Assembly (NCBI GenBank): GCA_001898725.1
Contig: MKUV01000061.1
Location: 1 to 32,516 of the forward strand
From: Caedibacter sp. 37-49
GTDB lineage: Bacteria; Pseudomonadota; Alphaproteobacteria; Caedimonadales; Caedimonadaceae
DNA: 32,516 nucleotides
Direction of reading: 5' to 3'
The position numbers and the translations under genes are program-made. Shown one piece after another: positions 12,934 through 26,797 of the stretch. Each line of letters begins with the position of its first letter. Within the stretch, counting starts at the first letter, position 1. The notes under the pieces are model-generated. The model had not been told where the DNA came from. It searched no databases and saw only the letters and a program-made list of their open reading frames with translations.

Positions 12934-12992
12934 AAGTTTTGCACTGAGAGAAATTTTCTCGTAGGGTGTCGCACAGTTTGCAAAAGGTAAAT

Positions 12993-13988
12993 ATGATGAA
13001 AGCACTTAAATTATTTCTCTTTATGGTCGCATTTACCATAATTGGAATATTTTATTATAAGTGGTTTTCCAAACCTTCTTCAAAAATTAAAACAATTGCT
13101 ATTAGCCAAATTGTTGAGCATCCCTCTCTTGAGGCTGTTAGGCGAGGAATAATTGATTTTCTTGTTCAAAGTAACTTACAAGAAGGTAAAGACTACAAGA
13201 TAATTTATAAAAATGCGCAAGGCAATATGAGTATTAACAATCAGATTGCAAAGCAATTTGTAGGGATAAAACCAGATGTCATCGTAGCTATTTCTACACC
13301 TAGTGCTCAAGCTCTTGCAGTTGCCTCTCACAACATGAACATTCCTTTTATATTTGCAGCCGTTACAGATCCTGTACATGCAAATCTTGTTAAAGATTTA
13401 AAGAGGCCGGGCGAATTTATTTCTGGCGTAAGTGATCTTCCTCCAGTGCATGCTCAAATAGAATTAATTAAGGACATCCTTCCTAAAGCGAGCAAAGTTG
13501 GTATTTTATATAATCCAGCTGAAGTTAATTCAGTAAAAATAATCAATAAATTTAAAGAATTGGCTCAGAAAATGGACATTGAAGTATTCTTAGCTCCAGC
13601 AACAAGGACTTCAGAAGTATTGTTTGCTGCCCAAAGTTTAGTTGGAAAAGTTGATGCAATTTACATACCTCAAGATAATACGATAGTATCCGCGATTTCT
13701 TCTCTAATTTCTTTGCAATATGAGAAAAATATCCCCTGTTTTACAAGTGATGAAGTGTTAGTTCAAAAAGGAGCATTTGCGGCTGTTGGCACAAGTTATT
13801 ATGAGCATGGAAAGCAGGTTGGCGAAAGAGTTATTAAATTTTTAAAACATACACCAGGTTTGCAAATTCCTATTGCCTTTCCTGAAAAACCTCAAATTTA
13901 TATTAATGAGACAACAGCTAAGCACTTGGGAATTAATGTACCAAGTAAAATCGCCAAAAGAGCACATTATTATAAAATTCAAAAATAG
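12993..13988 (+). CDS. ABC transporter substrate-binding protein (TrpX-type), membrane-anchored paralogue
   Basis: A 331-residue protein of the ABC_sub_bind family (PF04392), the group containing TrpX. Family blocks include ISQIVEHPS near the mature N-terminus, AISTPSAQAL and FAAVTDPVHA in the first lobe, and LYNPAEVNS in the hinge region. The N-terminus (residues 4-25) is a hydrophobic helix without a clear AxA cleavage site or lipobox cysteine, so it may stay as a membrane anchor. The ATG at 12993 is chosen because AAAGG lies 7 nt upstream; an in-frame GTG at 12966 is a weaker alternative. The next gene is a paralogue. Substrates of this family include aromatic amino acids; the substrate here is not known. 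Confidence 0.82.
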   Translation: MMKALKLFLFMVAFTIIGIFYYKWFSKPSSKIKTIAISQIVEHPSLEAVRRGIIDFLVQSNLQEGKDYKIIYKNAQGNMSINNQIAKQFVGIKPDVIVAISTPSAQALAVASHNMNIPFIFAAVTDPVHANLVKDLKRPGEFISGVSDLPPVHAQIELIKDILPKASKVGILYNPAEVNSVKIINKFKELAQKMDIEVFLAPATRTSEVLFAAQSLVGKVDAIYIPQDNTIVSAISSLISLQYEKNIPCFTSDEVLVQKGAFAAVGTSYYEHGKQVGERVIKFLKHTPGLQIPIAFPEKPQIYINETTAKHLGINVPSKIAKRAHYYKIQK

Positions 13989-14156
13989 TTGAAAAGGTTT
14001 ACTTTTTTGAAAATCTAAGTTACATTTCACGGCTAAATTATGAAATTATTAATGTTTGTCTGTTAGCATTATTAGTAAAAAAACTAAAAGACATATAGTG
14101 AAATTGTCTGATAAGCAACAACGAAAAATAATAAAAAAGTATAAAGGAACTTTATT

Positions 14157-15188
14157 ATGAATAATGCTAAAAACTTCTCTTTTTTAAAGAGTTGTAGAAA
14201 AGTTTTTCATTTAAAATTTTCTAGTCTTTTAACACTTATAAATTCTTTTATATGTATATCTTATGCTCATGCATTAGTAGATAAACCCATTATTGCTATC
14301 ACACAAATAATTGATCATCCTTCAGCTAATGCTGTTAGAGAAGGCATTAAAAAATCTCTCGAAGACCAAGGATACATCGATGGAAAAACAATTAAATGGC
14401 TTTACAAAAACCCTCAAGGGAACAGTGCGACTAATATTCAAATTGCTCAACAATTTGTGAGTTTAAAACCGAGCATTATGATTGCTATTTCTACACCAAG
14501 TGCACAAGCTTTAGTTTCATCAGCTCGCAATCATAGCATACCTATTGTTTTTGCAGCCGTCACTGATCCTATAAATGCAGGGATTGTCAAAGATCTAAAA
14601 AAACCAGGTGGTTTAGTAACAGGTGTGAGTGATTTCCCCCTTATTGAAAGACAGGTTAAACTTATTAAAAAGATGTTACCAAATGCAAAAGTGATTGGTG
14701 GTCTGTATAATCAAGGCGAAATTAATTCTGTGAAGCAGTTTAGGCTTTTTGAGGAACTTGCAAAGAAAGAGGGGTACGAGGTTATTTCTGTTGCTGCTAT
14801 GAAAACGTCAGATGTACATGCGGCAGCGTTAAGTCTTATTAAAAAAGTTGATGCTTTCTATATTACTCTAGATAACACTGTCCTTTCTGCCATGGATATT
14901 TTAATTAAACTTCAATTTGATTTTAAAAAACCCATTTTTACAAGTGAGACAGATTCTGTTTTTCAAGGTGCGTTAGCAACAGCTGGAGCTCATTTATTTG
15001 ATATAGGAAGAAGTGCGGGAAAAATGGTTATTAGAATTTTACAAGGGGAAAAACCTTCAGAGATTGCTGTCGAGACAGCCGAAGTTTCGGACATTACAGT
15101 TAACATGAAAACCTTAAATTATTTAGATTTAAAGCTTCCTGAAGATAAAGAATTTAATTTTAATAAAGTCGGATTTGAGAACTCTTGA
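14157..15188 (+). CDS. ABC transporter substrate-binding protein (TrpX-type), secreted paralogue
   Basis: A 343-residue ABC_sub_bind family protein that matches the preceding gene block by block: ITQIIDHPS, AISTPSAQAL, FAAVTDPINA and LYNQGEINS. Unlike that gene it has a signal peptide of about 40 residues with a long n-region, ending in SYAHA, a likely signal peptidase I site. It should therefore be a soluble periplasmic binding protein. It lies 19 bp upstream of the permease and is probably the main receptor of the system. The 168-bp gap before it may hold its own promoter, but no convincing boxes were seen. Tandem copies suggest duplication followed by specialisation. Confidence 0.85.
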   Translation: MNNAKNFSFLKSCRKVFHLKFSSLLTLINSFICISYAHALVDKPIIAITQIIDHPSANAVREGIKKSLEDQGYIDGKTIKWLYKNPQGNSATNIQIAQQFVSLKPSIMIAISTPSAQALVSSARNHSIPIVFAAVTDPINAGIVKDLKKPGGLVTGVSDFPLIERQVKLIKKMLPNAKVIGGLYNQGEINSVKQFRLFEELAKKEGYEVISVAAMKTSDVHAAALSLIKKVDAFYITLDNTVLSAMDILIKLQFDFKKPIFTSETDSVFQGALATAGAHLFDIGRSAGKMVIRILQGEKPSEIAVETAEVSDITVNMKTLNYLDLKLPEDKEFNFNKVGFENS

Positions 15189-15207
15189 TTTATAGAAAGA
15201 TAATTTT

Positions 15208-16113
15208 ATGAATGAATTACAGTTTTTAGGTGCAATAGAGCTTGGCCTAATTTATAGCATGGTCGCTTTAGGTGTTTATCTTTCTTTTCGAATATTAGAT
15301 TTTCCAGATATGACAGCAGATGGTTCTTTTCCTTTAGGCGCAGCAATTGCAGCAACTTTAATTTCTTACGGATGTAATCCCTGGTTGTCTACGTTTTGCG
15401 CTATTCTAGGTGGCTGTGGCGCTGGTTTCTTTACAGCTTGGTTGAGTGTGCGTTGGAAAATCTTAAATTTGCTATCTGGAATTCTAACTATGTTGGCTCT
15501 TTATTCAATTAACTTAAGGATTATGAAAGGGCCTAATGTAACCATTATGATGGATGTAAGAACAATTTTTAGTCCCTTTGAAATAATGTTCTCGACAAAA
15601 ATAACAGGAACAATTTTCTTATTAAGCCTGATTACTTTAGTTGCAGGTTTTTTATTATGGTACTTTATGCTCACTAAGACAGGCCTTGCTGTGCGTGCGA
15701 CAGGAACTAATCCGCGGATGGCTAGAGCACAAGGTATAAAAACTAGAGCAATGATTCTTTTAGGAATTTCTTTAAGCAATGGATTAATTGCTTTAGGAGG
15801 GGCGTTGTTTGCTCAACATCAGGGTTTTGCTGATGTGAGTATTGGTAGTGGAACTATTATTATGGGCCTTGCAGCTGTAATTATAGGGGAAGTTGTGTTC
15901 CAAACGCGAAGAATTTGGTTAACTCTTTTGGCTTGTATTATTGGCGCAATTCTTCACCGCTTTGCAATTGCATTAGCCCTCAATGCAGATGGTATTGGTT
16001 TGCAGGCGACAGATTTAAATTTAGTAACGGCGGCTATTGTGATTATTGCGATGATACTTCCGCGTTTGAAGGAAATAACAACAAATAAATTTACAGAGCG
16101 GAGTCGGTCATGA
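15208..16113 (+). CDS. ABC transporter permease (BPD_transp_2 family)
   Basis: A 301-residue hydrophobic protein with about eight membrane helices of the branched-chain/TrpY type. FPDMTADGSFPLGAA near residues 32-46 and LRATGTNPRMARAQGI-like sequence (VRATGTNPRMARAQGI here, about 162-177) are the family landmarks; the second is the cytoplasmic coupling loop that contacts the ATPase. A single permease implies a homodimeric channel. Its stop overlaps the ATPase start as ATGA, so the two are translationally coupled. With the two binding proteins and the ATPase it forms a complete importer. Confidence 0.9.
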   Translation: MNELQFLGAIELGLIYSMVALGVYLSFRILDFPDMTADGSFPLGAAIAATLISYGCNPWLSTFCAILGGCGAGFFTAWLSVRWKILNLLSGILTMLALYSINLRIMKGPNVTIMMDVRTIFSPFEIMFSTKITGTIFLLSLITLVAGFLLWYFMLTKTGLAVRATGTNPRMARAQGIKTRAMILLGISLSNGLIALGGALFAQHQGFADVSIGSGTIIMGLAAVIIGEVVFQTRRIWLTLLACIIGAILHRFAIALALNADGIGLQATDLNLVTAAIVIIAMILPRLKEITTNKFTERSRS

Positions 16114-16907
16114 TTAAGCTTGAAAAAATACGTGTTCTTTTTAATCAAGGAACAGCATTAGAAAAAATGGTTCTGAATAACGTCTCCCTTGCTATTGAAG
16201 AAGGAGAAGTTGTCACTGTTATTGGTGGAAATGGGGCAGGAAAATCGACTTTATTAAATGTTTTAACTGGTGATATTAGACCATCCTATGGAAAAGTCTT
16301 TTTTGAAAACATTAATGTTACAGACTGGTCAGCAGAAAAAAGAGCAAGTATGGTAGCGCGTGTTTTTCAAGATCCTTTAGTAGGGACATGCGGGAATTTA
16401 ACTGTGGAGGAAAACTTAGCTCTTGCCTTTTATCGTGGTAAAAATCTTGGTCTTCGTTTTGCTTTATCACCTAATAATCGAAAAATTTTCCATGAATTTC
16501 TTGAAAAGTTAAATTTGGGGCTTGAAGCGCGACTTAAAGACCCTATTGGCCTTTTATCAGGAGGTCAAAGGCAAGCGATCTCTTTAATTATGGCTGTTCT
16601 TTCTCCTATGAAAATATTGGTTCTTGATGAGCATACAGCAGCTTTAGACCCACGAACTGCTGCTTTTATTATCCAGCTTACCTGTAATATTATATTAGAG
16701 AAAAACTTAACTGTTTTGATGGTAACCCATAGCATGCGTCAAGCGCTTGAAGTTGGAAATCGAACTCTCATGCTCACAGAAGGAGAAGTGGTTTTCGATG
16801 CAAATGGAAAAGAACATTCAAAATTAACAGAAGATGATCTTTTAAAACTTTTTAAAGAAGTTGTTGATAAAAAGGGAGAAGAGGACGAAATTCTTTTAAA
16901 CCCTTAA
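16110..16907 (+). CDS. ABC transporter ATP-binding protein (TrpZ-type)
   Basis: A 265-residue ABC ATPase. Walker A GGNGAGKST is at 39-47, the Q-loop lies in VFQDPLVGTC (about 85-94), the signature LSGGQRQ is at 149-155, and Walker B ILVLDEH is at 169-175. The H after the catalytic glutamate, in DEHTAALDP, is characteristic of the ATPases that partner ABC_sub_bind importers. The H-loop is in VTHSMRQA. It powers uptake by the linked permease. No terminator with GC stems follows; the next 95 bp are AT-rich. Confidence 0.92.
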   Translation: MIKLEKIRVLFNQGTALEKMVLNNVSLAIEEGEVVTVIGGNGAGKSTLLNVLTGDIRPSYGKVFFENINVTDWSAEKRASMVARVFQDPLVGTCGNLTVEENLALAFYRGKNLGLRFALSPNNRKIFHEFLEKLNLGLEARLKDPIGLLSGGQRQAISLIMAVLSPMKILVLDEHTAALDPRTAAFIIQLTCNIILEKNLTVLMVTHSMRQALEVGNRTLMLTEGEVVFDANGKEHSKLTEDDLLKLFKEVVDKKGEEDEILLNP

Positions 16908-24302: not shown

Positions 24303-25805
24303 ATGAAAATTTTTAACTGGTTATTTCTTTCATTCCTGCTTTTAAAAAATAATGTGGAGGCTTCTCCAGGACAGATATTGAGGTGTGGATGGTATTCATG
24401 GGAACCGTATCAATATATTGAACAACAAGTAGGTAGTAAACAGCTAACAGGGCTCGATGTTCATATATTAAATGCTATTATTAATATAGCTGGGTATAAA
24501 ATTACTTATGAAGAAATTTCATGGCAACAGCATCAAGAAAGGTTAAAAATTGGAAATTACGATATTGCTATGGGAGCAACTAAAATAGATGAACGTGAAA
24601 AACATTATTATTTTACAGAACCCTACCGCGAAAGTATTGATGCTCTTTTTATTTTGACAGATTCTTCCAAAAAACCAACTTTTCAAAATGCAATTGAATT
24701 TATTAGAGAAATTAAACAAAAGAAATTTAAATTGGGTGTAACAGAGGGATATTTTTATTCTGTTCCTGAACTAAATGATTTTATAAATGATAAGAATTAT
24801 CAAAACTTAATTGTTAAATCAAATAACACGATCAGCAATATGATGTTACTAGAAACTAAGCAGATTGATGGATTTTTGGCTGATCACGTTAATGGTACAA
24901 CAATTGCATGGCGCAAACGTATGCATGAAAAAATCAAAACTTATGAAATAAGCCGTAGTCCAATTTATTTTATGTTAAGTAAAAATTCTTTATCTGCGAA
25001 AGATTTGAAAAATATTAATGAAGCAATTTTATCGTTCAAAAGATCTAATGATTATAATGCCGTTTTTAAAACTTACTTAATTGCTCCGCTTTTGTTACAA
25101 AATATTGATAAAAAATGGTTTTATTTAATTGATATAATTGGTACTATAGCATTTGCATTGTCAGGTATTATTATTGCCTATCGTATGCGCTCTACCTTAT
25201 TTACAACAATAACATTAGCAATGCTTCCAGCAATTGGAGGAGGAATGATGCGAGATATTATTGTTGGGAGACGTCCTTTAGGTGTCTTACAAACACCAGA
25301 TTATTTATTTGCAGTGCTTTCAACAGTCTTCACATGTTATATTATTCTCCAGTTTTTATCAGTGGTTTCTTCAAAAAGTCGTTTCTATCCAAAGGTTCTT
25401 TTAAATAAGAAATTTTTGATACGAGCACTCGATGTTTTTGATGCTTTAGGTCTTGCTGCATTTACAGTTATTGGTACGAAAGTAGCAGTCATTTCAAAGT
25501 GTGAACCACTTTGGTTATGGGGACCTTTATTAGCAGCTATTACAGGAGCTGGAGGAGGAGTAATAAGAGACTTATTACGACCGGATCGACACGTTACTAG
25601 TTTCATGGGCGAGCTTTACGCCGAAGTTGCAATAATTTGGAGCTTTTTCTTATCAATTTTTTTGCATTTTCATCATACTTATTTATCTCCCGACGAAGTA
25701 TTATGGGCTATCATCATAACAATCGTAGGTGTTTTTGTCACACGCATGGGAGCTAGCATTTTTAATCTTAAGGGGCCAAATCTATCATCACGCTTCTCTT
25801 CATAA
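24303..25805 (+). CDS. Periplasmic amino-acid-binding domain fused to a TRIC cation channel
   Basis: A 500-residue fusion. Residues 1-20 are a signal or first membrane segment. Residues 26-262 are a complete SBP_bac_3 domain, the family of polar amino acid binding proteins. R98 (DEREKHYYFTEPY) and D194 (GFLADHVNG) align with the Arg and Asp that hold the carboxylate and amino groups of amino acids in HisJ-type proteins. Residues 272-490 are a TRIC/UPF0126 (YadS-like) channel of about seven helices, with both glycine-rich motifs, GGGMMRD (312-318) and GGGVIRD (417-423). The sequence is continuous with no internal stop. Ligand-gated cation flux is inferred from architecture only. The next gene starts 23 bp later and is probably co-transcribed. 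Confidence 0.9.
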   Translation: MKIFNWLFLSFLLLKNNVEASPGQILRCGWYSWEPYQYIEQQVGSKQLTGLDVHILNAIINIAGYKITYEEISWQQHQERLKIGNYDIAMGATKIDEREKHYYFTEPYRESIDALFILTDSSKKPTFQNAIEFIREIKQKKFKLGVTEGYFYSVPELNDFINDKNYQNLIVKSNNTISNMMLLETKQIDGFLADHVNGTTIAWRKRMHEKIKTYEISRSPIYFMLSKNSLSAKDLKNINEAILSFKRSNDYNAVFKTYLIAPLLLQNIDKKWFYLIDIIGTIAFALSGIIIAYRMRSTLFTTITLAMLPAIGGGMMRDIIVGRRPLGVLQTPDYLFAVLSTVFTCYIILQFLSVVSSKSRFYPKVLLNKKFLIRALDVFDALGLAAFTVIGTKVAVISKCEPLWLWGPLLAAITGAGGGVIRDLLRPDRHVTSFMGELYAEVAIIWSFFLSIFLHFHHTYLSPDEVLWAIIITIVGVFVTRMGASIFNLKGPNLSSRFSS

Positions 25806-25828: not shown

Positions 25829-26797
25829 ATGGAAAAAGAAGAAAAATTACCTCTATGTATTGATCTTGATGGCACCCTAATCCGAACCGATGTTACACAA
25901 GAGGGTGTCTTATTATTTCTGAGAAAGTACCCTTGGAAATTTTTCTATATTTTGTATTGGCTTTGCAGAGGGAGAGCTTTTCTTAAAGCAAAATTAGCTC
26001 AAAAAGTAATGTTTAATCCAAAATTTCTACCCTATAATCAAGACTTTTTAAATTATCTTAAAGTTAAAGCCCGAGAGGGATATGATCTTTATCTAGTTAC
26101 TGCAGCAGATCAAAAATGTGCGAAAATGGTTTATGATCATCTAGGCATCTTTAAAGAATATCTTGCAAGCGATGGAAACAAAAATTTGCGTTCTTCAACT
26201 AAAGCGCAAGCTTTATGTGATCTTTTTGGAGATGAAGGTTTTATATATGCTGGAAATTCAAAACACGATCTTCCTGTTTGGGAGAAGGCTGGTGAGATTA
26301 TTGCAGTCAATACCCCCAACAATGTCCTTAAGAAAGTTAACATCCTTAATAAAAAAATCGAGAAATTTGAGGATAAGAAATTTGCTTTAAAAGATGTTGG
26401 TAGAGATTTCCTAAAATCCCCTTGGTTTAAATTCCAATTATCTTTTAATTTATTGATTATAATAATAAATTTATTATTTAATAAGTTTTATCTAGAGGTA
26501 TTTAATTTATTTAAATGGATAAGTTTTACTGCTTTTATATTTTTTCTTAGTGCAGCCGCTTCTTTAGTTGGTCAGTTATTTGCACTTGAAGAAATGAGAA
26601 GTAATTTAAGAACAAGCAAAATGTTGTTGGCTACAGGGTATCTAACTATTCCTTTAGCAATATACTTAAGTCTAATTTTTATAACTTTAGGTGTTATTTT
26701 AGGGTTATTTTTTCCACCATTTTATTACATTTTTATCGCTTTATTCTTTATAATTCAATTTGGCTATATTGGTCGGCTGATAAGAGAAAAAATTTAA
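25829..26797 (+). CDS. HAD-type phosphatase with a degenerate, truncated UbiA-like membrane tail
   Basis: A 322-residue protein. The HAD domain (about 7-165) keeps the nucleophile motif DLDGT (12-16), VTAAD (90-94), K125 and GNSKHD (142-147). It matches the HAD half of the HAD-UbiA fusions found in alphaproteobacteria. The C-terminal part (about 198-320) has four hydrophobic segments and lines up with the first part of UbiA. Where UbiA has its aspartate-rich prenyl-diphosphate motif, this protein reads VGQLFALEEMRSN (247-259), with no aspartate. It also ends about 150 residues short of the usual fusion length. Phosphatase activity may persist; prenyl transfer should not. AGGAAAG lies upstream of the ATG. 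Confidence 0.82.
   Translation: MEKEEKLPLCIDLDGTLIRTDVTQEGVLLFLRKYPWKFFYILYWLCRGRAFLKAKLAQKVMFNPKFLPYNQDFLNYLKVKAREGYDLYLVTAADQKCAKMVYDHLGIFKEYLASDGNKNLRSSTKAQALCDLFGDEGFIYAGNSKHDLPVWEKAGEIIAVNTPNNVLKKVNILNKKIEKFEDKKFALKDVGRDFLKSPWFKFQLSFNLLIIIINLLFNKFYLEVFNLFKWISFTAFIFFLSAAASLVGQLFALEEMRSNLRTSKMLLATGYLTIPLAIYLSLIFITLGVILGLFFPPFYYIFIALFFIIQFGYIGRLIREKI

Follow-up and report, generated by a model that had tools for sequence, protein, structure and literature searches.

Fusion of an amino-acid-type solute-binding domain to a TRIC membrane domain in Caedibacter sp. 37-49 and other bacteria

Caedibacter sp. 37-49 encodes a single polypeptide in which a solute-binding domain of the SBP_bac_3 family precedes a TRIC membrane domain. 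Both halves belong to known families and it is their fusion that is apparently new. The fusion is real, conserved and suggestive of mechanism; transport, ligand and gating are deduced. The protein is tentatively read as a one-piece, ATP-free, binding-protein-coupled device for amino-acid permeation (probability about 0.45). A literature search on SBP_bac_3 combined with a TRIC channel found no paper, although a 2011 survey may hold a mention: Silverio and Saier reportedly noted fused domains in prokaryotic TRICs that year.

The gene and its features lie as follows in the window, the whole stretch of 32,516 nucleotides that was analysed:

24303..25805, + strand: SBP-TRIC fusion protein, 500 aa (ORF, Pfam, AlphaFold2 model, structural alignment)
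24303..24362, + strand: probable Sec signal peptide, residues 1-20 (MKIFNWLFLSFLLLKNNVEA) (sequence and model helix)
24363..25040, + strand: type II solute-binding domain (SBP_bac_3), residues 21-246 (Pfam, model, structural alignment)
24594..24596, + strand: R98, expected contact of the ligand alpha-carboxylate (alignment to AncQR)
24882..24884, + strand: D194, expected contact of the ligand alpha-ammonium group (alignment)
25041..25112, + strand: helical junction, residues 247-270 (model, alignment of 43 fused proteins)
25113..25781, + strand: TRIC (UPF0126/Gly_transporter) domain with seven transmembrane (TM) helices, residues 271-493 (Pfam, model, structural alignment)
25116..25121, + strand: W272-F273 at the top of TM1 (alignment)
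25236..25244, + strand: TM2 glycine motif G312-G314, GGG (sequence, alignment)
25506..25523, + strand: periplasmic TM4-TM5 loop motif P402-x-x-x-W406-G407 (alignment)
25551..25559, + strand: TM5 glycine motif G417-G419, GGG (sequence, alignment)
25829..26797, + strand: downstream gene, HAD-like plus weakly UbiA-like, starting 23 bp after the fusion stop

The frame at 24303-25805 (+) is a single ORF that begins with ATG and is free of internal stops, while the one frame examined on the opposite strand is interrupted by many. No Met codon occurs between residues 224 and 295, and there is therefore no ATG start in that interval for a separate TRIC product. In Pfam the SBP_bac_3 match covers residues 32-259 (E 7.6e-17). 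The TRIC family PF03458, whose current Pfam name is Gly_transporter ('Glycine transporter'), matches above cut-off in two stretches that correspond to both repeats (E 1.4e-28, 99 bits). An AlphaFold2 monomer model built from 30 homologues (pLDDT 85.6, pTM 0.77) places the binding domain at residues 25-246, one helix at 249-268, TM1 at 271-294 and the seven TM helices up to residue 486. Its amino-terminal helix 2-13, together with the sequence, makes residues 1-20 a probable Sec signal peptide. Structural alignment of the model gives Z 24-26 to solved TRIC structures, with Z 25.7 and 2.1 A over 195 residues for model residues 272-493 on 5wuf. The binding domain has the two-lobe fold and scores Z 23-25 to amino-acid-binding proteins, reaching about 25 for glutamine- and arginine-binding proteins; the values for 3h7m and 1wdn are both about 25. 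ORF, Pfam, model and structural alignment agree with the sequence-only reading, which had proposed a complete SBP_bac_3 domain in one frame ahead of a complete TRIC domain.

After removal of copies, at least 43 distinct full-length fused homologues were found. Besides the window's fusion, the Caedibacter genome encodes another full-length one, 43% identical to it, and these two are its only TRIC proteins. Identity of full-length homologues is 70-75% in the same genus, 45% in the family and 35-39% in the order, others lying further out in the class. In a class-wide sample, 14 of 385 genomes have a full-length fusion, the window's own counted, and a named scan found fusions in Caedibacter, Caedimonas and Rickettsiaceae, including the complete chromosome CP084576.1 of 'Candidatus Megaira' (Rickettsiaceae). 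The fusion is common in small-genome relatives, Rickettsiaceae and Caedibacter-like bacteria among them. It is also present in metagenome-assembled genomes labelled Desulfobacteraceae, Desulfonema, Opitutia, Flavobacteriales, Chromatiales and Gammaproteobacteria, labels that may be wrong. No full-length copy was found on plasmids. Two genes joined by assembly error or by chance are excluded as an explanation, with negligible residual probability, because 43 fused homologues, the paralogue in the same genome and the complete chromosome speak against it; the architecture survey across genomes that the sequence-only reading had called for thus yielded the fused forms whose absence would have counted against it. 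Tandem SBP-TRIC gene pairs are found at four loci (L166, L167, L168 and L040), where hetero-oligomers or different ligands are possible. A related SBP_bac_3 domain occurs in a protein of 591 residues (L014:469-2241, - strand), where a long tail of Pro/Ala-rich repeats comes after it and TRIC is absent.

The junction is a constant feature of the family. From residue 246 to W272 there are 27 residues in 43/43 fused proteins, with no indel, unlike the cytosolic TM3-TM4 loop of the same proteins, which varies from 16 to 26 residues. Both halves and the junction evolve under purifying selection, with dN/dS of 0.17 for the SBP half, 0.15-0.16 for the junction and 0.07-0.09 for TRIC. Simple tethering, offered earlier as the alternative to a ligand-gated channel, is disfavoured because the junction length is constant; a loose tether would need neither fixed length nor purifying selection, and the alignment points to a rigid junction.

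Every one of the 43 fused homologues has R98 and D194, which extends to the family what had been noted for one sequence, that both residues are retained. The unfused SBP_bac_3 relatives (n=17) keep R98 in 16 cases and D194 in 8. By profile alignment the two residues pair with the Arg and Asp of the arginine/glutamine-binding AncQR; it is established for this family that these two residues grip the carboxylate and ammonium groups of the amino acid. GlnPQ domains rank among the best sequence matches of the binding domain, and its top Foldseek match is 3h7m, a histidine-kinase sensor.

Work on GFP-tagged E. coli YadS and the structure of SaTRIC put the TM2-TM3 helix outside and the TM5-TM6 helix inside (PMC5477506). 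The TRIC amino terminus is therefore outside and the binding domain periplasmic, as had been proposed. The mean net charge of loops in the fused family (+2.7 for TM3-TM4, +2.1 for the carboxyl terminus, -1.3 for TM6-TM7) is consistent with this orientation.

The TRIC half keeps both glycine motifs, in line with the sequence-only reading, and G313, R317, D318 and G418 are present in 43/43 fused proteins and R422 in 42/43. Gate (lock) residues were described on both membrane sides of SaTRIC (PMC5477506). Their equivalents, R317, D318 and Y334 at the periplasmic gate and D380, R422 and D423 at the cytosolic one, are all conserved; the pore looks functional because the residues of both locks are kept. 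Y439 is retained in only 27/43 fused proteins. With an inverted repeat gated at either face, a carrier is as compatible with these residues as a channel. The idea that the fused proteins have a longer plug loop on the cytosolic side was dropped, since 15 versus 14 residues is no real difference.

Judging from alignment and tree, the fused TRIC halves form one distinct clade with its own periplasmic signature. A strongly supported branch separates the fused proteins, together with two NMT1-TRIC and two TRIC-only proteins, from 20 unfused TRICs. W272, P402, W406 and E441 are found in 43/43 fused proteins and are seldom or never seen in 52 other TRIC proteins: unfused TRICs commonly have residues other than W at position 272, and P402 and W406 are missing from nearly all of them. 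F273 is present in 42/43 fused proteins, and position 309 is P in the fused clade versus T in other TRICs. The TRIC-only proteins L128 and L129 nest inside the fused clade and have thus probably lost the binding domain. Both keep the W/F pair and PxxxWG, which makes it less likely that the loop motif serves SBP docking alone. The binding-domain tree, weakly resolved, does not contradict a single origin of the fusion.

A second architecture occurs in the same TRIC clade. Two rare proteins (L130:1444-3327, - strand, NMT1 E 4e-25; L073:4942-6684, + strand, NMT1 E 1e-32), 31% identical to each other over their length, carry an NMT1/THI5-type binding domain fused to TRIC. No other full-length NMT1-TRIC was found among 299 sampled Pseudomonadota genomes. 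The ligands of NMT1 domains are usually other than amino acids. Attachment of a different flytrap class to the same pore suggests that coupling a flytrap to the pore is useful in itself. At the edge of the L058 contig (19-2715, + strand) a Peripla_BP_6/ANF-receptor-type binding domain is fused to an MscS mechanosensitive channel; the gene adjoins an ectoine synthase gene and lies two genes upstream of an SBP-TRIC gene.

The neighbours of the fusion gene in the window are ribonuclease E/G-like, HAD-like and rpsB. The HAD-like gene is also present in the genus relative L035 and absent beside the other homologues read; it is part of the surroundings, outside the system. Flanks are conserved within the genus and within one Rickettsiaceae group, in which a serS-like gene and one for a small membrane protein precede the fusion, but they differ between groups, and the search for an operon partner as a clue to function was fruitless. 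No shared neighbour pointing to amino-acid metabolism appeared across the homologue flanks read. Elsewhere in the window (12966-16907), translations indicate a pair of neighbouring ABC-type substrate-binding-like proteins, after which come a permease-like and an ATPase-like gene.

In the favoured explanation the periplasmic venus flytrap would use R98 and D194 to bind an alpha-amino acid or close analogue. The carboxyl-terminal helix of the flytrap continues by way of the fixed-length junction into TM1, one of the helices that line the pore of the TRIC trimer, the homotrimeric state being taken from literature on other family members. The loaded flytrap would most likely dock on the periplasmic mouth of its own protomer, at the PxxxWG loop and the W-F pair atop TM1, and would there hand over the amino acid or license its passage through the pore.

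Amino-acid permeation is put first because the attached domain is a predicted amino-acid binder and the membrane family is itself tied to an amino acid. Transposon fitness data show a dependence of glycine use on UPF0126 (bacterial TRIC) genes in 11 bacteria (PMC12173739), and these genetics, with the Pfam name of the family, make permeation at least as likely as ligand gating. The size of the fused family, the kept R98/D194 pair, the fixed junction, the clade signature, the purifying selection, the conserved gates and the NMT1 fusions on the same clade all speak for it, as does a PLP-dependent amino-acid decarboxylase gene that starts 2 bp after an SBP-TRIC stop (L060:5506-7053, + strand). 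Against permeation stand the K+ conduction of purified SaTRIC in bilayers (PMC5477506), the genetic nature of the glycine phenotype and its origin in unfused relatives, the want of a shared neighbour from amino-acid metabolism in the flanks read, the L060 arrangement being a single case, and the usual preference of NMT1 domains for ligands of another kind.

The K+ data lead to a somewhat less probable explanation, a ligand-gated cation channel in which flytrap closure would pull TM1 through the rigid junction and let K+ or Na+ flow through TRIC. Monovalent cations pass TRIC pores (PMC5477506, PMC5401562), and RsTRIC and SsTRIC are connected to K+ uptake in E. coli in work cited in PMC5401562. 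The helical junction of fixed length entering pore-lining TM1 would suit such gating, and the binding domain is similar to GluR0 and further receptor cores (2pyy, Z 23.5) and to the 3h7m sensor; the flytrap-MscS fusion near a homologue in L058 also fits. The likeness to GluR0 is, however, common to all SBPs of that class, and the glycine genetics of unfused relatives provide a direct substrate link instead. No computation separates the two explanations decisively, and permeation is preferred. It is rather unlikely that the family represents a second, independently evolved flytrap-gated channel onto which NMT1 domains were swapped for other ligands.

Efflux is improbable. A ligand-controlled homeostasis valve would sense an external solute and regulate how amino acids, osmolytes or K+ leave the cell by TRIC; Silverio and Saier (2011, as cited in PMC5401562) proposed that metabolites exit through prokaryotic TRICs, and in L058 ectoine synthase is encoded 18 bp upstream of the SBP-TRIC gene, but this context is one case and the glycine-use phenotype points to uptake. 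Mere co-localisation, with TRIC as an anchor and the binding domain feeding a distant ABC permease, is more improbable still. The genome does have one polar-amino-acid ABC permease, yet it also has two further SBP_bac_3 proteins outside the fusions, so that this importer does not require the fusion as its binding protein. No ABC permease or ATPase was recognised beside the window's fusion gene, nor beside the other homologues, whose ORF translations were read and few profile-searched, and a fixed junction and a TRIC-clade signature would be superfluous.

Evidence on the cargo of bacterial TRICs conflicts, structures and bilayers indicating K+ and fitness data glycine. Through its amino-acid-binding domain the natural fusion links the TRIC pore to a ligand and therefore offers a direct test of cargo. 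If permeation is true, one-chain, ATP-free, binding-protein-coupled amino-acid uptake would be new, and it would serve host-associated bacteria, to which the uptake of host nutrients is important. If ligand gating is true, a flytrap-gated channel unrelated to glutamate receptors would be new.

SaTRIC, CpTRIC, SsTRIC and RsTRIC (UPF0126, PF03458) share with the fusion seven TM helices, two inverted repeats, glycine motifs and gates, but have about 210 residues and no binding domain, and the fusion clade has motifs of its own (W272/F273, P309, PxxxWG, E441 and W446). The putative UPF0126 glycine transporters belong to the same Pfam family; their glycine role is deduced from a mutant phenotype in members outside the fusion clade (reviewed in PMC12173739). 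Amino-acid SBPs of ABC importers, including the permease-fused receptors of GlnPQ, have the binding fold and the ligand R/D in common with the fusion, whose chain contains neither ABC permease nor ATPase. The TRAP and TTT secondary transporters would share binding-protein-dependent, ATP-free uptake, with unrelated membrane parts. The likeness to ionotropic glutamate receptors, GluR0 included, put forward by the sequence-only reading holds in part: a flytrap of the same class, periplasmic in the fusion, is joined to a pore, but the P-loop pore inserted in the binding domain has no counterpart, the TRIC pore lying carboxyl-terminal to an unbroken binding domain.
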